A DNA stretch of 64,000 bases from Methanoregula boonei 6A8 (GTDB lineage: Archaea > Halobacteriota > Methanomicrobia > Methanomicrobiales > Methanospirillaceae), in the NCBI RefSeq assembly GCF_000017625.1, contig NC_009712.1, positions 2,356,001 through 2,420,000 on the forward strand. Reading direction: 5' to 3'. Shown here piece by piece: positions 8,501 through 18,958 of the stretch (positions are counted from its first letter, which is position 1; each line of letters starts with the position of its first letter). The position numbers were made by a program, and so were the translations under genes. The notes below the pieces were generated by a model that was given only the letters and a program-made list of their open reading frames with translations, was not told where the DNA came from and searched no databases.

Positions 8501-10276
8501 ATGTCAGACCCGAAGATCAGGACGCCGATCGTGTGCGTCATGGGACATGTGGATCACGGGAAAACCTCACTTCTCGACCGGATCCGCGGGTCATCGGTCG
8601 TTGCCTCGGAAGCAGGTGCGATCACCCAGCACATTGGCGCTACAATCGTCCCCATCGAGGCGATCCGGAAGATGAGCGGATCGATGGAGAAGATCCCCAT
8701 CAACATCCCCGGCCTGCTCTTTATCGATACGCCGGGGCACCACGCGTTTACCACACTTAGGGCCCGGGGAGGGGCGCTTGCCGACATGGCGATCCTGGTC
8801 GTGGACATCAGCCAGGGGTTCCAGCCCCAGACCATTGAGGCCCTGCAGATCCTGCGGAACTGCAAGACGCCGTTTGTGATCGCTGCCACCAAGGTGGACC
8901 GGATCCATGGCTGGCGGATCAACAAGGACGAATCGTTTTTGTCCAGTTTTGGCAAGCAGAACGAACGGGTGAAGACCGATATCGAGACCAAGACCTACGA
9001 GATCGTTGGCAAACTCTCCGATCTCGGGTTCTCCGCGGACCGGTACGACCGGGTCTCGGATTTCCAGCGCAACCTTGCAATTGTTCCCGTAAGCGCCCAC
9101 ACGGGCGAGGGGATCGCGGACCTCCTCATGATCATGATCGGGCTTGCCCAGCGGTACATGGGCGAGGAGCTCAAACTTTCTGCAGAGGGACCAGGCGAGG
9201 GGACCGTGCTCGAGGTAAAAGAAGAGCGGGGCCTGGGGACAACGCTTGATGTGATCCTGTACAACGGCACGCTCTCGGTCGGTGACGAGATCGCGATGGC
9301 CAGCCAGGATGACGTGGTGACCACCAAGGTCAGATCGCTTTTGAAACCCCGACCCATGAAGGAGATCCTCATCGAGGACCGGTTCGAGCGCGTAAAGTCG
9401 GTTGTGGCGGCGTCCGGGATCAAGGTTTCGGCCCCGGGCCTTGAAAAAGTGATTGCCGGTTCGCCGCTCTTTGTGACCCGGGGGAACATGGACGAGCTCG
9501 CCGCCAGGATCCGAAAGGAGATGCAGGAGATCCATGTGAACCTTGCCGAAGAGGGGATCGTGATCAAGGCGGATACAATCGGGGCACTCGAAGCGCTCTG
9601 CAAAGAGCTGGAGTCAAAAGAGATCAAAGTGATGCGGGCACAGGTTGGCCCGGTAAGCCGGCACGACCTGATCGACACCGAGACCATCAAGAACCCGACA
9701 TTCCGCGTGCTCCTGTCCTTCAATACCCCGATCCTTCCCGACGCGGCGGATATGATAAAAGACCCGCTCTACACGCAGGTGAAGGTCTTCTCAGGCCAGG
9801 TGATCTACCAGCTCATCGATCAGTACGTGGCATGGCGCGACGAGCAGAAACGGATCGCGGAGAAGGCGCAATTCGAGCACGTGATGATGCCGGCAAAAAT
9901 CCGGTTGCTGCCGGACTGCGTGTTCCGGCAGAGCAACCCGGCCGTGGTCGGGGTGCGCGTGCTGGGCGGGAAGCTCCGTGCGGATGTGGACCTGGTAAAG
10001 ACTGACGGGAAAAAGATCGGGCACCTCAAGACCATGCAGCTCCGGCAGGAATCGATTAAGGAGGCGGACGCAGGCCTTGAGGTGGCAATCTCGATTGAAG
10101 GGGCAACCGTAGGACGGCAGCTCAACGTGGGAGACGATCTCCTGGTGGACCTGCCCGAGCGCCACGTGAAGGTGCTTGAACGTGAGATGCTCAAGAACCT
10201 CAACATCAGCACGCAGGAAGTGCTCGCGGAATTTGTTGCGATCCGGCGCAAGGCCGAGCCGTTCTGGGGTAAGTGA
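8501..10276 (+). CDS. infB: Translation initiation factor aIF5B
   Basis: This 591-residue GTPase promotes ribosomal subunit joining at start codons. G1 is GHVDHGKT (residues 15-22), G3 is DTPGHHAF, G4 is ATKVDR in place of NKxD, and G5 is VPVSAHTGEG. These are followed by the beta-barrel domain II, the alpha/beta domain III and the C-terminal domain IV (from about residue 430), as in archaeal aIF5B. ATG 8501 follows GGAGG; an in-frame codon at 8453 would add 16 residues with no match to the family. The eS6 gene follows, a common archaeal arrangement of translation genes. Confidence 0.97.
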   Translation: MSDPKIRTPIVCVMGHVDHGKTSLLDRIRGSSVVASEAGAITQHIGATIVPIEAIRKMSGSMEKIPINIPGLLFIDTPGHHAFTTLRARGGALADMAILVVDISQGFQPQTIEALQILRNCKTPFVIAATKVDRIHGWRINKDESFLSSFGKQNERVKTDIETKTYEIVGKLSDLGFSADRYDRVSDFQRNLAIVPVSAHTGEGIADLLMIMIGLAQRYMGEELKLSAEGPGEGTVLEVKEERGLGTTLDVILYNGTLSVGDEIAMASQDDVVTTKVRSLLKPRPMKEILIEDRFERVKSVVAASGIKVSAPGLEKVIAGSPLFVTRGNMDELAARIRKEMQEIHVNLAEEGIVIKADTIGALEALCKELESKEIKVMRAQVGPVSRHDLIDTETIKNPTFRVLLSFNTPILPDAADMIKDPLYTQVKVFSGQVIYQLIDQYVAWRDEQKRIAEKAQFEHVMMPAKIRLLPDCVFRQSNPAVVGVRVLGGKLRADVDLVKTDGKKIGHLKTMQLRQESIKEADAGLEVAISIEGATVGRQLNVGDDLLVDLPERHVKVLEREMLKNLNISTQEVLAEFVAIRRKAEPFWGK

Positions 10277-10350
10277 GAGAAGCGCTCAGGGTCAGCTGGC
10301 GGCGCCGAGCTTGCGGGTCTGGGAGACGCGAGGGTTTAATAGCGTACTGG

Positions 10351-10395
10351 TATAATTAAATGGGTACTTCACGTGCACAGGCGTACGTTACGCCT
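10351..10395 (+). promoter_or_regulatory. eS6 promoter with inverted repeat at the start region
   Basis: A TATA-like TATAATTAAA lies at 10351-10360. About 26 bases downstream, the expected transcription start falls within an inverted repeat at 10379-10395 (AGGCGTA, 3-base spacer, TACGCCT). The remaining ~70 bases to the eS6 start may be an untranslated leader. The repeat could be an operator or the stem of an mRNA hairpin. Confidence 0.4.
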
Positions 10396-10463
10396 AAGGG
10401 CCGGAGAGTGAACGGGAATGCCAATCGGTTGCGTCCCGGGATGACCAATACGGAGAATCAAGC

Positions 10464-10895
10464 ATGGTTGAATTAAAAGTCGTAGTATCAGACCCGAAGA
10501 CCGGTCGCGCATACAATGTCGATGCCAGCACCGGAGCGGCAGGAGCAGTCGTGGGCAAGAAGATCGGGGATGAAGTGGACGCCGGCCCCCTCGGGCTTGC
10601 CGGTTACAAGATCCTGATCACCGGGGGCTCGGACCAGACCGGGACACCGGCACGAAAGAGCCTGCCGGGCGCAGGGCGGAGGAAACTCCTGCTTGCAGAG
10701 GGCGTAGGGTTCCACCCCGTGATGGAAGGCGAGCGCAAGAGAAAGATGATCCGCGCCCACCAGATCACCCCCGAGTTTGTGCAGGTCAACGCACGCGTGA
10801 CCGCGTACGGCGAAAAGACCCTCGACGAGCTCTTCCCCAAGGTCGAAGGCGCCGAGAAGAAAGAGAAGACCAAAGAGAGAAAGGTCCGGAAGTAA
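10464..10895 (+). CDS. rps6e: 30S ribosomal protein eS6
   Basis: A full-length archaeal eS6 of 143 residues, a small-subunit ribosomal protein. Hallmarks are the N-terminal VVSDPKTGRAY, the central TGGSDQTGTPARKSLPGAGRRK (split here by reading as two parts: TGGSDQTGTP, then ARKSLPGAGRRK), and a basic C-terminus. Its last ~250 bases and the sequence just downstream are repeated, with damage, at 11242-11505. The intact copy has all expected segments and is surely the functional one. Confidence 0.97.
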   Translation: MVELKVVVSDPKTGRAYNVDASTGAAGAVVGKKIGDEVDAGPLGLAGYKILITGGSDQTGTPARKSLPGAGRRKLLLAEGVGFHPVMEGERKRKMIRAHQITPEFVQVNARVTAYGEKTLDELFPKVEGAEKKEKTKERKVRK

Positions 10896-10937
10896 CGTTC
10901 CCGGGCAAAAATACTTTTTTCGCGCTTCGCTGTTTTT

Positions 10938-11241
10938 CCGGTTTCTGTTCTGTGGTGCACGTTTCTGATACGTGTGCGTGTCGCGGTTCTTTGGGAACAT
11001 CCCGCAACAGAATCCGACCGCATTTTTGAGTGCAAAATCCATTTCACTCAACGCCAAGACTATTTCATACCAAAACAATTTCCCTGTATGTCAATCAAGA
11101 CCAAGTGTCCGAAAGGACTGAGATACAGCTGCTGCGGCTGCTGGTTCCGGAGCTTTTGCCCGTATTCCAACTGTGGATAACTGCATGAACACAGCCGGCG
11201 CCTGAGCCGGATGAGGAGGGGGTACCCATTCCCCAGCGGGA
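10938..11241. other. Spacer between the two eS6 copies
   Basis: About 300 bases separate the functional eS6 gene with its T-rich tail from its broken copy. The only coding candidate is the short Cys-rich frame at 11088-11180. I see no transposase, tRNA or strong hairpin here. Confidence 0.5.
11088..11180 (+). CDS. Possible Cys-rich 30-residue peptide
   Basis: An ATG frame in the spacer encodes 30 residues with six cysteines, ending in SCCGCWFRSFCPYSNCG. The Cys density would suit a small metal-binding peptide. No ribosome-binding site is visible upstream and the composition does not prove coding, so it may be chance. The same frame extends upstream to 10974 without better support. Confidence 0.2.
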   Translation: MSIKTKCPKGLRYSCCGCWFRSFCPYSNCG

Positions 11242-11505
11242 CGGCACGAAAGAGCCTGGCGGGCGCGGGGCGTAGGGTTCCATCCTGTGATAGAAGGCGA
11301 GCGCAAGAGAAAGATGATCCGCGCCTACCAGATCACCCCCGAGTTCGTGCAGGTCAACGCCCGCGTGACCGCGTACGGCGAAAAGACCCTTGACGAGCTC
11401 TTCCCCAATGTCGAAGGCGCCGAGAAGAGAAAGAAAACCAAAGAGAGAAAGGTCCAGGAGTATGTTTCCCGGGCAAAAATACTTTTTTCGCGCTTCGTTG
11501 TTTTT
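11242..11505 (+). pseudogene. Broken partial duplicate of the eS6 gene
   Basis: This segment repeats 10648-10937 almost base for base. It begins inside the gene at CGGCACGAAAGAGCCTG and ends in the T-rich tail beyond the stop codon. It lacks the N-terminal half. It has also lost 26 bases between two GGGCG repeats (the copy-one segment starting near 10673), which shifts the frame. Several substitutions and a lost stop codon show it is not maintained. The surviving frame still matches eS6 from GERKRKMIRAYQ to KKTKERKVQ. Confidence 0.9.
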
Positions 11506-11610
11506 GTTTCTTGAAGTTCCAGGGATCATTTCCAGTACGCGTGCGTATCGATTTGCGCTCCGCTCTTCTCCACAAATACTGGCCGGCAGGGTGTACCCCG
11601 CGGATCGAAA

Positions 11611-11801
11611 GGGGGGTGGGTGGGGGGCACCCCCCCCTCCACCGGATCAGTGTGGCTCTTCCATTCTGCGCGGGAAAAAGCGGGCCGTTCGCGTTGAGTT
11701 GCCGACGGAAGGATGTGGGCCGGACAGATGCCGTACCAAGGGGGTACCCCCCATGAGCTAAAAAACAGTCGGGGGGAGGGTGACCCCCACCCCCCTCCCC
11801 C
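11611..11801. repeat. GC-rich modular repeat, locus A
   Basis: Three G-run/C-run inverted modules occur in order. Module 1 (11611-11640) is GGGGGGTGGGTGGGGGG followed by a C run. Module 2 (11739-11754) is centred on GGGGGTACCCCC. Module 3 (11771-11801) is GGGGGGAGGGTG followed by C runs. Each can fold as a hairpin, and the G runs could form a quadruplex. The same three modules, in the same order, recur at 50135-50358. Long open frames across this segment are artefacts of base composition. Confidence 0.75.
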
Positions 11802-12103
11802 AATAGCGCGGATCCCGGAAGGGAAACGGGAGACAAAACTGCACAGAGGGGCTCAGGGAGTTCACAAGCAGCACGCGAAGCCCCACGAGCGACCAGCGAG
11901 GTTTGTGGTGCGGATGGGATGGGGATTGATGCGATCAAAGCGGAGTTGTTGCCGCAGATGCTATATGTGGGGGTGGAGTGATGAAGGCAAGAAAAGATCC
12001 CCCACAAAATAAACAATATTTCTCGCTCCCGGGGATCCATTCGGCCAAATTGCTATTCCATGAACGAGACGGACCACCTTCATATTTGGGATTATCTGTT
12101 TGT
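11802..12103. other. Intergenic stretch before the A+T-rich island
   Basis: About 300 bases without a convincing gene. Base composition changes here from G+C-rich to A+T-rich at around 12000, marking the left edge of the accessory island. Confidence 0.5.
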
Positions 12104-12523
12104 TTATTTGAGTTCATTTGTAGATTGTACAATGCTAGGGCTATCCACATAACAAAAAGATTGTGGAGGGACAAAACGCTCGAACGTGTTGTATGGATTT
12201 ATTGGTTCTTCGAATGTCTCCAACTCATCAATCGGAATCGCATAGCCGGTTTCTTTACCAGAAAAGTAATTAAAGAATTCTGACTCGCTTAGTCCAGAAA
12301 ACTCACGGAACTGCTCCCAAAGGAAATCCGGTGAGCCCTGCACAATTTTCCCGGGGTGGAAACAAGCAACAATTTTCTTCATAGGAGATGAGGAGTAAAT
12401 ATAAACGGTTTTACTATTGGAATCATTGAAGATCTTCTTTCGAAATTCGTAATGCTTGGTCCCCTCCAAGATAGCTTGGACATACTTAGGTTTGATGGAA
12501 AGCAAAACACCGGTCAATTCCAC
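12104..12523 (-). CDS. ASCH-domain protein
   Basis: A 139-residue protein made almost wholly of an ASCH (PUA-like) domain, a fold associated with RNA or modified-nucleotide binding. The family signature is LLSIKPKYVQAILEGTK followed by EFRKK near residue 26. A strand-turn with VYIYSSSPMKKIVACF follows, then the W-x2-F segment and a C-terminal PPQSFCYV. It starts with GTG at 12523, preceded by a weak GGGAG. It is read toward the eS6 duplicate and away from the PIN fusion. It closely resembles the ASCH protein at 14211 and the C-terminal domain of the gene at 14626, so the locus has three related domains. Confidence 0.85.
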   Translation of the reverse strand: MELTGVLLSIKPKYVQAILEGTKHYEFRKKIFNDSNSKTVYIYSSSPMKKIVACFHPGKIVQGSPDFLWEQFREFSGLSESEFFNYFSGKETGYAIPIDELETFEEPINPYNTFERFVPPQSFCYVDSPSIVQSTNELK

Positions 12524-12673
12524 AAACTCCCAAATCTAAAAAATATGTTTCGTCTATACCTATTTAAGTACCGCGTAGGAGAAGTGAAAATAAACATCCC
12601 GCTATCTTACTATAGCACTCTAAAAGATCCCAATGCGTTATATTCATCAGTTTGTAGAAAGGTATATGGGAGA

Positions 12674-12690
12674 TTTATAATATATATTTA
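12674..12690 (+). promoter_or_regulatory. Strong TATA box for the PIN/ASCH/GNAT genes
   Basis: The run TTTATAATATATATTTA is the most TATA-like sequence in this region and lies 32-48 bases before ATG 12722. There is no Shine-Dalgarno-like motif before that ATG, so a very short or absent leader is likely. Confidence 0.55.
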
Positions 12691-12721
12691 AAAAGATCGA
12701 TTGGTTGTGTCGGCGATCTCG

Positions 12722-14233
12722 ATGAAATTATTGTTGGATACTAATATTATTTTACACCGTGAAGGGAAAAATCCCATCAATCCAGATATTGGGAAATTAT
12801 TTTCCTGGATCGACCGGCTAGGTTATCAAAAATGTGTACACCAGATTACTGTTGATGAAATAAAAAAAATTCAAGATCAAAAAGTCCGTACCGCTTTTTT
12901 GGTGAAACTGGAAAGTTATCACATCCTTCCTACTGTTGCACCAATTCATACCGATGTAAAAAAAGTATCCGATCATTGGGATACCAAATCCAATGATTTA
13001 AACGATACTCTACTTCTAAATGAAGTCTATGCAGGTCGAGTTGATCTTCTACTAACGGAAGATAAGAAAATTCATAAAAAAGCCAGTGATCTGGGGATTA
13101 ATGGCAAGATCTTTACCATTGATTCATTATTAGAGAAATTAACGTCAGAAAATCCCGATTTTGTAGATTATAAGGTTCTAGCCATAAAAAAAGAGTTCTT
13201 TGGGAACATAGATATCACAGATGAATTTTTTAATAGTCTGCGAGAGGATTATTCGGATTTTAATGAGTGGTTTAATCGGAAATCTGACGAAATCGCGTAT
13301 GTTTGTATGTTGGAGAAAAAAGTCCTGGCCTTTCTCTACATGAAGGTTGAAACCGAAAAAGAGTCCTATAGCGATATTACACCGATATTTAAACCAAATA
13401 AACGGTTGAAAATTGGTACCTTCAAAGTGAAACTAAATGGCTATATTTTGGGAGAGCGCTTCCTAAAAATTATATTTGATAATGCGTTACACCAGTCCGT
13501 CAAAGAAATCTATGTTACAATTTTCCCCAAACGCCCCGAGCAAGAAAGGCTCATTCAGTTACTTACTGATTTTGGATTCACACCTCATGGAATTAAAACA
13601 TCTAAATACGGTGAGGAACTGGTATATGTCAGGGATTTTTCACCTAAAGTATCCCTCAATACTCCTAAAACAACATATCCCTACCTATCTAAAAACGCAA
13701 GAAAATTTATTGTTCCAATTTATCCGGCCTATCACACGAGCCTACTTCCTGACTCCATTCTTCAAAGAGAATCTCCAGCGGATTTTATTGAAAATGAACC
13801 TCACAGAAATGCTATCTCCAAAGTTTATATTTCGCGGTCCTATCGCAAAGATTTGCAATCCGGTGATGTAATTATTTTTTACAGAACTGGTGGATACCAT
13901 CAATCAGTAATCACGACTATTGGAATCGTGGAAAACGTCCATAAAAATATTCAAAGTTTAGAGGATTTTGTTTGGATTTGCAGAAAAAGGAGCGTGTTTT
14001 CTGCAAATGAGTTGAAAGAGCAGTGGGATAAATACCCAACCATTCGGCCATTCGTAGTAAATTTTCTCTATGCGTATTCATTCCCTAAACGACTCACTTT
14101 GCAACGCCTTATTCAGTTGGGAATTATTACCGATATTCATTCTGCACCTCGGGGATTTGAACTAATCTCTGAAGAGGCATTCGAAAAGATAGTTTTGGAG
14201 ACAGGAACCGATGGCCATATTATTATCAATTAA
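12722..14233 (+). CDS. PIN nuclease - GNAT - PUA-like fusion protein
   Basis: The product has 503 residues in three parts. Residues 1-140 form a PIN domain with candidate metal ligands D6 (LLLDTN), E46, D95 and D114. Residues about 155-305 resemble a GNAT acetyltransferase, with a motif-A-like stretch NGYILGERFLKIIF (239-252) and a C-terminal GFTPHG. Residues about 318-480 look like an EVE/ASCH-type PUA-like domain, with KVYISRSYRKDLQSGDVIIF and the hydrophobic strands that follow. It is A+T-rich unlike neighbouring core genes. It overlaps the next ASCH gene by 23 bases, suggesting translational coupling. Possible roles are RNA cleavage and tRNA or protein acetylation guided by a nucleic-acid reader; none is shown by sequence alone. 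Confidence 0.82.
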   Translation: MKLLLDTNIILHREGKNPINPDIGKLFSWIDRLGYQKCVHQITVDEIKKIQDQKVRTAFLVKLESYHILPTVAPIHTDVKKVSDHWDTKSNDLNDTLLLNEVYAGRVDLLLTEDKKIHKKASDLGINGKIFTIDSLLEKLTSENPDFVDYKVLAIKKEFFGNIDITDEFFNSLREDYSDFNEWFNRKSDEIAYVCMLEKKVLAFLYMKVETEKESYSDITPIFKPNKRLKIGTFKVKLNGYILGERFLKIIFDNALHQSVKEIYVTIFPKRPEQERLIQLLTDFGFTPHGIKTSKYGEELVYVRDFSPKVSLNTPKTTYPYLSKNARKFIVPIYPAYHTSLLPDSILQRESPADFIENEPHRNAISKVYISRSYRKDLQSGDVIIFYRTGGYHQSVITTIGIVENVHKNIQSLEDFVWICRKRSVFSANELKEQWDKYPTIRPFVVNFLYAYSFPKRLTLQRLIQLGIITDIHSAPRGFELISEEAFEKIVLETGTDGHIIIN

Positions 14234-14633
14234 GCCAGTATACGTCAAAAAAATTTTTTCCGGTGAAAAAACCGTCGAATTTCGAAAGGCGAAACCTAAC
14301 TATCCCCCAAGCGTGATTTTTATTTATGAAGGATCCCCCACAAAAAAAATTGTAGGGTGGTTCACTGTAAAAAAAATATTTTCCGGAACCCCAAATGAGA
14401 TTTGGGCGAGATATGGTACAGTCGGTGGAATTTCGAAAAAGATGTTTTTTGAATATTGCTCTGACAGCAAACAAATTTTCGCCTTCGAAATTGATAAAAA
14501 AAGCCGATTCCCCAATCCAATAGATCCTTTGAAAATTGATCCCAATTTTTCACCTCCCCAAAATTTCTCTTATCGAAATTATCCCTTGGCACAGTCTGGT
14601 GTTAACGAGCAAATGGAGTTAGACCATGTCTGA
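14211..14633 (+). CDS. ASCH-domain protein
   Basis: This 140-residue protein is a paralogue of the ASCH protein at 12104: LLSIKPVYVKKIFSGEKT and EFRKAKP at the N-terminus, FIYEGSPTKKIVGWF in the middle, and SPPQNFSYRNYP near the end. The start lies inside the 3' end of the PIN-GNAT gene, and the stop overlaps the start of the GNAT-ASCH gene by 8 bases. The three genes are therefore almost certainly one operon. As a free ASCH domain it may be a reader subunit or an antitoxin-like partner for the fused enzymes; this is inference. Confidence 0.85.
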   Translation: MAILLSIKPVYVKKIFSGEKTVEFRKAKPNYPPSVIFIYEGSPTKKIVGWFTVKKIFSGTPNEIWARYGTVGGISKKMFFEYCSDSKQIFAFEIDKKSRFPNPIDPLKIDPNFSPPQNFSYRNYPLAQSGVNEQMELDHV

Positions 14634-15897
14634 ATATCGACTTGATCGGATTCTTCAGGATGATGAGATTCGTCAATTAAATGACTTATTATCTCCAAAA
14701 TTTTCGGCAGATTATCCGAATTTTGAAATTTGGTTAAAAAGTGTTCAGACGGAAATGTCCAATGGTAAAAGGCGCTTTGCGATAGGGATCTGGAAAGAAA
14801 AATTGATTGCCACTTCGATTATCAAATTAACGGCCAGTGGTGTTGCAGAATTAAAAAGTTTTTTTGTCGATCCGGATTTTATCCATCAGAGATACAGTAA
14901 TGACTTATATTCTGAAGTGGAAAACCAGTGTCGTAAATCTGGTACGACTCGAATCATTTCTTATCTCTATATCGATAACAAGGAAATGATTGAATTTTTA
15001 ATTTCCAAAGGATTTTTAATTTCAGGTAAAGATGATCTCTACGGTAATGGGCGGGAATCCTATATCCTATCAAAGGCCTTAATGCCAGAATATTTTGGGG
15101 ATCCTTTCGATTGGGAAAATTTGGGAGGATGGTATCTCAGTATTGTTCTTAAGGCTGCGAAAATTGAGGATCATCCGGTTGTAAGCGATCGCGCTTTTGA
15201 TAGACATATGAAAATTGATTTTAATAATTGTTCATTAGATGCTCTTGTTGAAATTAAAGATGAAAAAGTTGACTTCGATCCAATTATGGTTTTACATCAA
15301 TGCTGTTCAACCTCTAAGTACCATTTTCCAATATTTGTGGCACGTTCGTTTTCTAAACGGGCAGAAAAATATGCAAGAGAGAATGGCGTGCTGATATTTT
15401 CATCTAAAGATATCGCAAAGATCCTTGGTAACCTACCTCCTGTTTTCTGCGATGGTCCCATCAAGGGTATGGTTGTCTCAATTAAACCAGAATACCTTAA
15501 ACGACTTCTTCAAAAGAAGCGCCCTCTTTATTATGTTAAAGGCGGGCCCATAGGGAAGAAATTACAAAAAGGTCAAACTCTGGTTTTTTACTCACTTGAT
15601 CCTGAAAAAGCAGTCACTGCCCTTGGTGAAATCCAATCTGTTCATATCGACACTCCGCAAAAAATCTGGAATCGCTTTGGTAAACATTTGGCCTTTTCAG
15701 AGCAGGAGTATTTCCGATTTGCATCCATCAAACAAAACATAGTCGCAATTGAATTGAGTAAAATCACGCCCATCGCCCCGATAAAAGAATCCGAGTTAGA
15801 CGCAATAATCCCTAAAAAAGATAGAAGTGGATCTTATCTCTCCGACAAAACGCTTAAAAAAATATTAAAGTATGCAAATTTGCAGCATTCCATCTAA
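14626..15897 (+). CDS. GNAT - restriction-nuclease-like - ASCH fusion protein
   Basis: The 423-residue product has three regions. Residues 1-150 are GNAT-like, with LKSFFVDPDFIHQRYSNDLY (76-95) and a following EMIEFLISKGF helix-strand typical of the fold. Residues about 160-270 resemble the restriction-endonuclease-like (Mrr) fold, with DALVEIKDEKV (205-215) as a possible core and FPIFVARSFSKRAEKYA then GVLIFSSKDIAKIL as in Mrr C-terminal halves. Residues about 282-390 are a third ASCH-like domain starting VVSIKPEYLKRLL. Catalytic residues of the middle part are uncertain. It ends the operon and is followed by a hairpin at 15898-15921. Confidence 0.8.
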   Translation: MSEYRLDRILQDDEIRQLNDLLSPKFSADYPNFEIWLKSVQTEMSNGKRRFAIGIWKEKLIATSIIKLTASGVAELKSFFVDPDFIHQRYSNDLYSEVENQCRKSGTTRIISYLYIDNKEMIEFLISKGFLISGKDDLYGNGRESYILSKALMPEYFGDPFDWENLGGWYLSIVLKAAKIEDHPVVSDRAFDRHMKIDFNNCSLDALVEIKDEKVDFDPIMVLHQCCSTSKYHFPIFVARSFSKRAEKYARENGVLIFSSKDIAKILGNLPPVFCDGPIKGMVVSIKPEYLKRLLQKKRPLYYVKGGPIGKKLQKGQTLVFYSLDPEKAVTALGEIQSVHIDTPQKIWNRFGKHLAFSEQEYFRFASIKQNIVAIELSKITPIAPIKESELDAIIPKKDRSGSYLSDKTLKKILKYANLQHSI

Positions 15898-15921
15898 ATG
15901 ACGACAGGTTGCTGCCGTCAT
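15898..15921 (+). terminator. Hairpin after the GNAT/ASCH operon
   Basis: An imperfect inverted repeat, ATGACGACAG / CTGCCGTCAT with a 4-base loop, starts right at the stop codon of the last island gene. There is no strong T run, so its role as a terminator is only likely. Confidence 0.4.
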
Positions 15922-15960
15922 GGAGAATTTCAAATTTTAGATCTTCAAAAGAGACAGCCA

Positions 15961-16113
15961 TTATAATCTGGTTTTTCTTGCCAGATATGCCGCCTTGCGT
16001 GCCAGCTCGCGACCCTCGGGCGTATCGTAGCGTGCCGGGTTTTCCATATACCGGTAAAATTCCCGGGCGTCCTCACCTTAAAGGACAAGCCCCACTTCTA
16101 TTGGTCGAGCCAT
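15961..16113 (-). pseudogene. Broken small antitoxin-like gene with an internal stop
   Basis: On the minus strand an ATG opens the frame MARPIEVGLVL, then an in-frame TAA, then GEDAREFYRYMENPARY and on to ARKTRL and a second TAA, 51 codons in all. Coding character continues unchanged across the TAA, so a single codon seems to have mutated, probably from AAA or GAA. The size and the IEVGLVL...GEDAREF pattern resemble small archaeal antitoxins beside PIN toxins, but I see no toxin gene downstream. The island at 12.1-15.9 kb starts where one would be expected. Confidence 0.55.
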
Positions 16114-16235
16114 GTTATCTCTCTGCTATAATGCGAACTCAAATCTAATTTTATGTCCGATACCTGAGTTTATTTTCCTGCAATCATGTAAAGATATTCT
16201 ATCCGATCGGAACTTTCAACAAACAGCAAATTTTT

Positions 16236-16796
16236 TCACTCCGCGTGAAACACCCCCTCTAGGCAATACACCGTCATCTTCTCCACCGTCCCCTCATCTT
16301 CGCACCGGCTATGAAGGTCGCAGGCCGGGCACATCATCCGGCCCAGGTCCTTCTTGTCCACGTTGAGCGTACCCTTCTGCTCGTGAAGATCGTAGAGCAG
16401 CTTAAGATACTTGCCCTCTGCAATCCGTGGGATCGCGTCTTTCTCTTTGAGGCCCTTCCACTCGTACAGCCGCCGGGCACCTTTGGCCGAATTGCACGGC
16501 CTGCAGACCCGGATAGCGTTGTCGGGGATGTCCGGGCCGCCACAACATCGGGGGAGGATGTGTTCGGTAGTGAGCGGACCGCCCGCTGCCCCGCAGTAGA
16601 TGCATGCACCCGGATTCTCGTGCTCGTGCAGCCATTCCCGGATCGTGGACGACCACACGATCTCTCCGTCACGGAGCTTCACAAACCGGCTCATCTGGAA
16701 GGCCCGGGCATTTGAAAGCCCGGCGGATTTCGAGATCAGCTTTGCGTACTGCCAGAAGATCTGGTCACGGATCGTTTTTACAGCAGAGGGAGGCAT
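16236..16796 (-). CDS. HNH endonuclease family protein
   Basis: The 186-residue protein has a classic HNH zinc-finger nuclease core: CIYCGAAGG, LTTEHILPR with the catalytic-type His, and NAIRVCRPCNSAKGARR, where paired cysteines hold the structural zinc. The N-terminal ~60 residues are helical and the C-terminus has two more CxxC-like pairs (CPACDLHSRC). It lies upstream of the broken antitoxin-like gene on the same strand. It may be a free-standing nuclease of a mobile or defence locus; the target is unknown. Confidence 0.88.
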   Translation of the reverse strand: MPPSAVKTIRDQIFWQYAKLISKSAGLSNARAFQMSRFVKLRDGEIVWSSTIREWLHEHENPGACIYCGAAGGPLTTEHILPRCCGGPDIPDNAIRVCRPCNSAKGARRLYEWKGLKEKDAIPRIAEGKYLKLLYDLHEQKGTLNVDKKDLGRMMCPACDLHSRCEDEGTVEKMTVYCLEGVFHAE

Positions 16797-16998
16797 AGTT
16801 ATTTTTCTGTCATGGTGGCGGCCCGATAAAGATATCGGAGGACAGTTCTAGCCGGAAGGGTGCCGGACTACCACTGGGGGCGGATCGAACAAAACTGTGA
16901 TCTTCAACTCCCGAGCTCATTTTTACATGAGACCCCACGACACCAGCTCAGTGCAAACAACTATTATCACTTACGAAATACCTAATGTCAGTGCCATT

Positions 16999-17127
16999 AT
17001 GCCAACCAAACGAATCCATAACCCCGTAACCGGAAAATATTATCAACTGCGGCAGCGTTCGAGCGTGAACGGTGAAGCAGGACAGATCAAGGGGTTGTGG
17101 AGCCCAAAGAAAAAAGCAAGGAGATAA
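16999..17127 (+). CDS. Small basic protein, likely antitoxin of the PIN pair
   Basis: A 42-residue basic protein beginning MPTKRIHNPVTGKYYQLRQR and ending KKKARR. Its stop lies 31 bases inside the following PIN gene, which argues that the two are co-translated. Small basic proteins in this position before PIN toxins are common in methanogens and are taken to be antitoxins. The internal ATG at 16999 was used because upstream codons in the frame look non-coding. Confidence 0.65.
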   Translation: MPTKRIHNPVTGKYYQLRQRSSVNGEAGQIKGLWSPKKKARR

Positions 17128-17804
17128 CGTTGACGTACGTCGGCAGCCGATGGTGTATTGATACCAATACACTCGTCCCCTGGCTGATCACTGACTCCGG
17201 AGTCCTTGCGCTTCTTATCAAAAAATACCAAATCCCCTCCGATTTTCGCGATATCTATCTGAACCGGCATAAGCCTTCCATTGATTTCATCCAGGGAATT
17301 ATCGATCTGAGATCAAAGGGATTGCCGGATGAATTTTATTTTTCATACCTCGCGATGAATGAAGTCTACTCTGCCGTCCGCGACGAAATCCGGAGCATCC
17401 TGTTATTCAGGAACGGTACCCCGCTTTCCCGCTGGAACGAAGAGAAGAATGCCATCGATCTTCCGGAAGACTCCATGGAGTCCGTATACGAAGATATTGA
17501 AAACAGATTCGATGTATTGTTCGGGAACGGCTCAATCTTCCCCTTGTCCGACGAACCAGAAGAAGATGGCGATAACTTTTCTGAAATTGTCGCCTCTCTG
17601 ATCTTTAAATTCAAGAGGGTAAAGACGCAGGACGCGATTCTACTTGCAACCGCCATCTCAATCAAAGCCAATTATTTCGTGACATTCGATCAAAGACTGG
17701 TGACGGAGGTATCAAAGGCACTCGCTGACAAATACCGGCTTGTGCTCATTTCCCCAAAAGAGGGGAATGCCCGACTTAAAAAAATCGGGAAACAAAACAA
17801 ATAA
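17097..17804 (+). CDS. PIN-domain protein, likely toxin
   Basis: A 235-residue protein with PIN-type acidic residues spread as expected: D22 (CIDTNTLV), E in AMNEVYSAV, D in KTQDAILLATAI and D in FVTFDQRL. PIN toxins are usually ribonucleases that cut tRNA or rRNA. It is longer than typical VapC (about 135 residues) because of a charged insert in the middle, so the substrate may differ. It starts with GTG within the preceding small gene. Confidence 0.82.
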   Translation: MEPKEKSKEITLTYVGSRWCIDTNTLVPWLITDSGVLALLIKKYQIPSDFRDIYLNRHKPSIDFIQGIIDLRSKGLPDEFYFSYLAMNEVYSAVRDEIRSILLFRNGTPLSRWNEEKNAIDLPEDSMESVYEDIENRFDVLFGNGSIFPLSDEPEEDGDNFSEIVASLIFKFKRVKTQDAILLATAISIKANYFVTFDQRLVTEVSKALADKYRLVLISPKEGNARLKKIGKQNK

Positions 17805-17922
17805 TCCGTTCTGTTAGGGCATATTCCTGTTGATGAGATGGCAGGACACCGGACCTCAGCCCCGGATTATCCTCAATCCTTAATACCTTAAAGAGGAGAC
17901 AGGAACGTAACTGACCCAGGTA

Positions 17923-18273
17923 ATGACCATGGCACTCTGCACAGTCCGGGAAAAAGGTGACTGCCTCATCGTCACCCTGCCCGTTTCTCTCGATCACGTG
18001 GAAGCCATGGCCCTGGAAAAGGAGCTCCGGGAATATGTTGCACGCGAACCAAAGGCACTCCTCTGCGACATGTCCGGATCAGAATATATATCGAGCTCGG
18101 GGCTCCGGGTGTTCCTTGCCATCGGGAAAAAGGCAAAAGAATCCCATGTCCACTTCGGTGTCTTTGCGCTCACGAAATTTGTCGACCATATCATTTCCAT
18201 GACCGGGTTTACACAGATTATTGCCATCTACGATACCGAAGAGGCAGCAGTCCGGGCAGTATCCCGGCTCTAA
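17923..18273 (+). CDS. STAS-domain protein, anti-sigma-antagonist-like
   Basis: A 116-residue single STAS domain of the SpoIIAA type. The conserved segment with the phosphorylatable serine is visible as SEYISSSGLRVFLAIGKKAK around residues 49-68. In bacteria such proteins bind anti-sigma kinases; in methanogens they occur without a sigma factor and may work in other partner-switching circuits. A second ATG two codons downstream at 17929 is possible. No kinase gene adjoins it. Confidence 0.9.
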   Translation: MTMALCTVREKGDCLIVTLPVSLDHVEAMALEKELREYVAREPKALLCDMSGSEYISSSGLRVFLAIGKKAKESHVHFGVFALTKFVDHIISMTGFTQIIAIYDTEEAAVRAVSRL

Positions 18274-18319
18274 AAAGCGTCCGGCTCCTGTAATAAAAAA
18301 AATCGTAACGTTCCCGGCA

Positions 18320-18850
18320 TCACACGGTTGCCGAGACCGTGACCTTGCCGTACGATGCGCTTGTGTTATCGATCGCAAGCTGCTGGCCGTTCTTGTAAAT
18401 GCTCACGCTCAGCGGGTGAGTGGCGGTGCTGTCGGTCTTCTGGAAGGTGGCAGTGATCGTGCCGGTCGCGTTTGCCACGGTATAGACCTTCGAGCCCGAA
18501 CCGGAGACCGTCATGATCCCGTCACCCGAATTGTACGTACCGTTGAAGCCCCCGATGTAGCTCACGCTGATCGAAACGCCGGTTGAGGAGACGACTGCAG
18601 GAGTACTGGTCGCTATAACCACCGGTGTCGAAGATGTGACAACTGCATGTGTCCCGGTTGCTGCAAGAGTGCCGGTCGGGGTCGGTGTAAGCGGGACCAT
18701 ATCGGAGGAGGAATGCCCCGATGACGACCCGCCGGAGAAATAGAGAACTGCGGCACCGGCCACGATCACAACGCCGATGATTGTGGCAACAAAAAGCCAC
18801 GGGATCTCGGCAGACCTCCGCCGCCGGCCACCATGTATTCGCGCCTGCAT
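18320..18850 (-). CDS. Membrane-anchored protein with Ser/Thr-rich stalk
   Basis: An N-terminal run of Arg residues (GGRRRRSAE) is followed by one transmembrane helix (about residues 20-40). A Ser/Thr/Pro-rich stalk of about 60 residues follows, and a small beta domain completes the 176-residue protein from ATG 18850. The basic flank before the helix suggests the C-terminus faces outward. The stalk looks like a glycosylated linker. I do not recognise the C-terminal domain; a pilin-like or surface role is possible. Confidence 0.7.
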   Translation of the reverse strand: MQARIHGGRRRRSAEIPWLFVATIIGVVIVAGAAVLYFSGGSSSGHSSSDMVPLTPTPTGTLAATGTHAVVTSSTPVVIATSTPAVVSSTGVSISVSYIGGFNGTYNSGDGIMTVSGSGSKVYTVANATGTITATFQKTDSTATHPLSVSIYKNGQQLAIDNTSASYGKVTVSATV

Positions 18851-18958
18851 ACCTACCGGTAGCACGTTGGATTATATTGCTTTTCCGGCAATACTGGCGG
18901 GAAAATCCAAACAGCCGGGATAAAAATCACGAAAAAATAAACCGTGCCACGAATGGGT

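Follow-up and report, generated by a model that had tools for sequence, protein, structure and literature searches.

A decayed second copy of the eS6 gene end in Methanoregula boonei 6A8, probably made by local duplication in a variable gap

Why is the end of a conserved ribosomal protein gene found a second time, a few hundred bases behind the gene itself and on the way to a genomic island? The question arises in a window of 64,000 nucleotides of Methanoregula boonei 6A8, by which is meant the whole stretch of DNA analysed (positions 2356001-2420000 on the single 2,542,943-base contig; all coordinates below are those of the window). The eS6 gene (rps6e; 10464..10895, + strand) is intact there and codes for 143 aa (PF01092, E = 9.5e-40). 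According to a repeat search, its 3' part, with the stop codon and a T-rich tail (10648..10937, + strand; hereafter copy 1), is present again at 11242..11505 on the same strand (copy 2). The two copies are separated by a spacer of 304 bases (10938..11241).

The similarity is divided into two blocks. The longer one (10700-10937 vs. 11268-11505) extends over 238 nt without any gap and with 17 mismatches (93% identity), while the shorter one (10648-10682 vs. 11242-11276) has 35 nt at 91% identity. In the full alignment, the left block of copy 2 amounts to 26 bases with two mismatches and is parted from the 238-base block by a 26-base deletion, across which the offset between the copies goes from 594 to 568 and the frame is shifted. 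The motif GGGCG occurs at 10667, 10674 and 10700 in copy 1, and only at 11261 and 11268 in copy 2. As for the TAA stop codon of copy 1 (10893-10895), it reads TAT in copy 2, whose frame stays open to 11514. A search of the source genome with 10640-10940 matched eS6 itself and, in two pieces, copy 2 (E = 4.2e-98 and 1.9e-4), and nothing else, so that chance similarity is excluded.

The initial annotation had already described this repeat and its reach into the sequence past the stop, the slippage-type loss of 26 bases between GGGCG repeats and the loss of the stop codon; all three are borne out, the deletion to the base. It had also spoken of a partial tandem duplication followed by decay. Duplication and decay stand, whereas the head-to-tail layout does not, with 304 bases lying between the copies. 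Separately, a simple head-to-tail duplication of a 594-base unit was considered and rejected: the sequence behind copy 2 repeats the spacer for about 50 bases only.

Concerning the outer limits of the repeat, the alignment persists for about 50 bases downstream of 10937/11505 at a lower identity, with a score equalled by 3/2000 shuffles and by 3/2000 random pieces of the window. The segment 11506..11556 (+ strand) is thus a weaker extension of the duplicated segment, the counterpart of 10938-10988; over the subsequent 51 bases, the copies do not align. Upstream of 10648/11242, the alignment score of the adjacent 35 bases is reached by 150/2000 shuffles and 77/2000 window pieces, and that of the adjacent 60 bases by 980/2000 and 711/2000, respectively. 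At 10937/11505, the proportion of mismatches rises from 7% to about 24% (17/238 vs. 10/41; Fisher p = 0.002), the 10/41 having been counted by hand from the alignment, cut at the last conserved block.

The differences between the copies were polarised by hand count, using G051, G009, G003 and G010 as outgroup genomes and excluding the deletion columns. Thirteen substitutions are derived in copy 2 and five in copy 1, with one ambiguous case. Among the ten coding changes assigned to copy 2 in the gapless part, three are synonymous and seven non-synonymous (including the stop loss), vs. a random expectation of 78% non-synonymous. Copy 2 is closer to copy 1 (93%) than to the corresponding sequence of G003 (81.5%) or G009 (76.8%), and three bases of the tail are common to both copies and absent from G003, G009, G051 and G010. 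Copy 2 has no start and lacks the 5' half of the gene. Like a partial-duplication pseudogene, it has an intact parent next to it and a disabled frame, is absent from the relatives searched and shows no sign of constraint. Since the substitutions are polarised in this way and the non-synonymous share is near neutral, copy 2 is, judging from its sequence, a decaying and unconstrained fragment, and copy 1 the working gene.

The distribution of eS6 was analysed in 54 genomes besides the source, 38 of the same genus and 16 of other genera of the order. A single match was found in 53 of them, including G023, where a contig edge leaves only part of it, and none in the remaining one (G044, 82% complete). 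A second match exists in the source genome only, among the genomes searched, many of which are incomplete. So far as these genomes show, copy 2 is specific to this species or strain.

Which of the two copies occupies the old place can be read from their flanks. The spacer resembles the sequence downstream of eS6 in G009, where its first 45 or so bases find their match (z = 11 for the whole spacer and z = 8 for the first 63 bases, 0/300 shuffles reaching the score in each case). With the flank of G003, the score is reached by 5/300 shuffles, with that of G051 by 40/300 for the whole and 11/300 for the first 63 bases, and with that of G010 by 280/300. For the flank after copy 2, the best values were 14/300 shuffles over the whole length (G051) and 11/300 over the second part. 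Copy 1 therefore lies in the old place, because it is the flank behind copy 1 that matches that of G009.

A search with 10900-11300 against the 39 genomes of the genus gave matches in four other genomes (E 0.0015-0.0066). The one in G009 is the eS6 flank itself; the other three, in G010, G023 and G053, span only 25-53 bases (E 0.0015-0.0062). That the spacer or copy 2 could be a dispersed repeat was also considered and rejected, the spacer being present in a single copy in the source genome. No protein family was matched by the spacer frame 10974-11180. An exact 15-base repeat, GTTCTTTGGGAACAT, is shared by the spacer (10986-11000), at the place where the old flank of copy 1 fades, and by the PDC-M11A gene of the island (13195-13209).

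The gap behind eS6 is variable within the genus. The interval is bounded by a convergent gene (18320..18865, - strand), for which no family was found above cut-off and which we take, as a guess only, to be pilin-like. Downstream sequence was available at 27 relative loci (26 in the genus) and gave matches in 25 (24 in the genus); the convergent gene was found in 23 of these 24 genus relatives. As measured from the ends of tblastn matches, 21 of the 23 have this gene 39-234 bp from eS6; the distance is 787 bp in G003 and 2876 bp in G009, vs. 7428 bp in the source genome. In the close relative G051 (L062 3-533), a DUF1848 gene is found behind eS6, at the contig end, instead of the genes present in the source genome.

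The source genome carries, at 11838..11975 (+ strand), a 3'-end remnant of a NIR_SIR (nitrite/sulfite reductase-like) gene, which lies intact downstream of eS6 in G009 and truncated in G003. These three states look like a stepwise loss of the gene. Next comes the island (11976..17922, edges approximate), with the genes of a candidate defence locus (PDC-M11A/B) and GNAT, HNH and PIN-like genes, followed by a STAS-domain gene (17923..18273, + strand) in common with G009. The island has no counterpart in G009, between NIR_SIR and STAS. Nor has it one in G003, where no STAS match was found and the stretch in question runs from the NIR_SIR remnant to the convergent gene. The left edge of the island is at about 11.98 kb (vs. 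G009 and G003) and its right edge at about 17.9 kb (vs. G009), neither of them at the eS6 repeat. On one side of copy 2 there are thus the working gene and its old flank, and on the other an older NIR_SIR remnant, as would fit a copy inserted some 300 bases behind its original.

Taken as a whole, these observations make it fairly likely that the end of eS6 was duplicated locally, in this genome only, and that the duplicate then decayed in a tolerant gap. The last part of the gene, the stop, the T-rich tail and about 50 more bases (10648 to ~10988) would have been copied some 300 bases downstream, and we infer that the route was most likely template switching or another form of illegitimate recombination. 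Slippage between GGGCG repeats would then have removed 26 bases from copy 2, which would also have lost its stop codon and accumulated substitutions, copy 1 remaining the working gene. The gap between the two convergent conserved genes appears tolerant, having presumably gained and lost NIR_SIR, STAS and the PDC-M11 island within the clade. Copy 2 resembles the fragments known as prokaryotic partial-duplication pseudogenes in being a 5'-truncated, frameshifted and neutral-looking copy near an intact parent. It differs from them in that the parent codes for a ribosomal protein and in that 304 bases, the last ~250 of them unexplained, lie between the copies; in kind, it is the same. Two observations sit less well with a single local duplication: the mismatch step at 10937/11505 is steeper than would be expected of a segment of uniform age, and the flank of copy 1 has a strong match to G009 only.

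The first of these could be accommodated by an older and longer duplication, the core of which was later kept alike by gene conversion while the flanks diverged, as identity drops sharply at 10937/11505 though homology goes on for about 50 bases. Such a history is nonetheless unlikely. The lack of a second copy in all 54 other genomes searched would leave a narrow time window for the older event, and the excess divergence is that of 41 aligned bases, counted by hand.

Distinctly unlikely, too, is that the locus is the remnant of an integrated element, which would have supplied the tail of copy 1, displaced the original one (copy 2) and later been mostly deleted, or which would correspond to the whole 7.4 kb interval. 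The order of the parts would fit, with the gene followed by an unexplained spacer, a displaced 3' fragment and an older downstream remnant. In addition, the eS6 stop codon is covered by the 13-bp sequence GTAACGTTCCCGG (10892..10904, + strand), which occurs a second time as a direct repeat where the interval ends (18305..18317, + strand), two bases short of the end of the convergent gene. The genome has three exact copies of it, and none of the reversed control pattern. A published parallel is provided by NitEve-E2 of the thaumarchaeon Nitrososphaera evergladensis, an element reported to have integrated at an att site of 13 bp that lies 3'-distally within a protein-coding gene (PMC6563490). 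In both cases, the 3' end of a conserved gene carries a direct repeat of 13 bp and is followed by an insert that varies. For NitEve-E2, however, the site was verified against the empty site of a relative and the element gave the gene a new stop codon (PMC6563490), whereas at the eS6 locus no integrase was found near, no clean empty site was seen, and the repeat is missing from relatives that have part of the insert.

Those relatives are G009, with NIR_SIR and STAS, and G003, with its NIR_SIR remnant, both of which lack the 13-bp repeat. Words of this type are, moreover, over-represented: a 15-mer with up to three mismatches gave 16 matches in the window vs. 1.9 expected. It also counts against an element that the G009-matching flank belongs to copy 1 and not to copy 2. 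Regarding integrases, PF00589 (tyrosine integrase) matches occur in 33 of the 39 genus genomes, and the two in the source genome are both far from the window. Where a genus genome has eS6 and a PF00589 match on one contig, comparison by eye put the nearest such match about 60 kb from eS6, many of the contigs being short. Neither serine recombinase, nor transposase, nor casposase was detected among the island proteins scanned.

The search for a donor was equally negative in what it covered. In viral contigs, the 75-aa frame found in copy 2 gave four pattern stretches, none of which was confirmed, and plasmids and phages queried with 10640-11980 in distant mode gave no match. A single 21-base pattern, compared with genome contigs, matched one Bacteroidales contig. 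In all these searches, records very near this genome were possibly omitted. The idea, raised in the initial annotation, that an integrating element made use of the 3' end of eS6 is therefore not supported, given island edges away from the repeat, no near integrase match and no donor. A broader form of it is quite improbable: the eS6 stop would be a recurrent integration spot in the clade, the 10.9-18.3 kb interval, candidate defence locus included, would have come in or been reshaped by integration between the 13-bp repeats, with an earlier event at that place having left the second eS6 tail as its scar.

That copy 2 is itself functional, as a second terminator or as a small protein (11287-11514, 75 aa), is very improbable. 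Its T-rich tail is nearly unaltered and the 75-aa frame is open, against which stand a non-synonymous share (7/10) close to the neutral expectation, the frameshift, the lost stop and the restriction to a single genome among those searched; an Rfam search of 10200-12200, with E up to 1, gave no match. Finally, a 5'-truncated eS6 reverse transcript ending at the T-rich terminator and inserted downstream would explain the truncation and a well conserved part that stops just past the T-runs, and is extremely improbable with homology extending beyond these runs and 0 PF00078 (reverse transcriptase) matches in the genome, in a search that was positive in 3/14 control genomes.

If local duplication and decay are indeed the explanation, the locus would exemplify the ordinary wear of genomes, at a place where the space between conserved archaeal genes tolerates it. 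It also calls for caution in taking a repeated gene end close to an island for an att site. Were the integration reading true, a ribosomal protein gene would have to be counted as an integration target in methanogens.

Between copy 2 and the NIR_SIR remnant, G-rich inverted repeats of the GGGGGGTGGGTGGGGGGCACCC type are found at 11609-11804. Parts of them recur at five other sites of the genome, and what is found again of this segment in the rest of the genome consists of short G-rich words only.

As for the island, its PDC-M11 locus adjoins the duplication and forms no part of it, PDC-M11 being a candidate system only. It was recognised with PADLOC (PDC-M11A, E = 3.8e-210; PDC-M11B, E = 1.8e-49 and 1.1e-37). 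GC content in the island stays at 35-42% as far as about 16.2 kb, rises to about 60% in the HNH gene and then falls to 46-50%. The GNAT and HNH genes are above the Pfam cut-offs, and the PIN-like proteins below the curated ones. The HNH protein (16236-16796, 60% GC) matches the Cas9d and IscB models in its HNH part, far below their cut-offs. The PDC-M11 locus extends from 12104 to 15897 and comprises PDC-M11A, with PIN matches below the Pfam cut-offs, and two PDC-M11B, one of them with an ASCH domain (Pfam); within the same limits lies the GNAT protein, the C-terminus of which resembles PDC-M11B.
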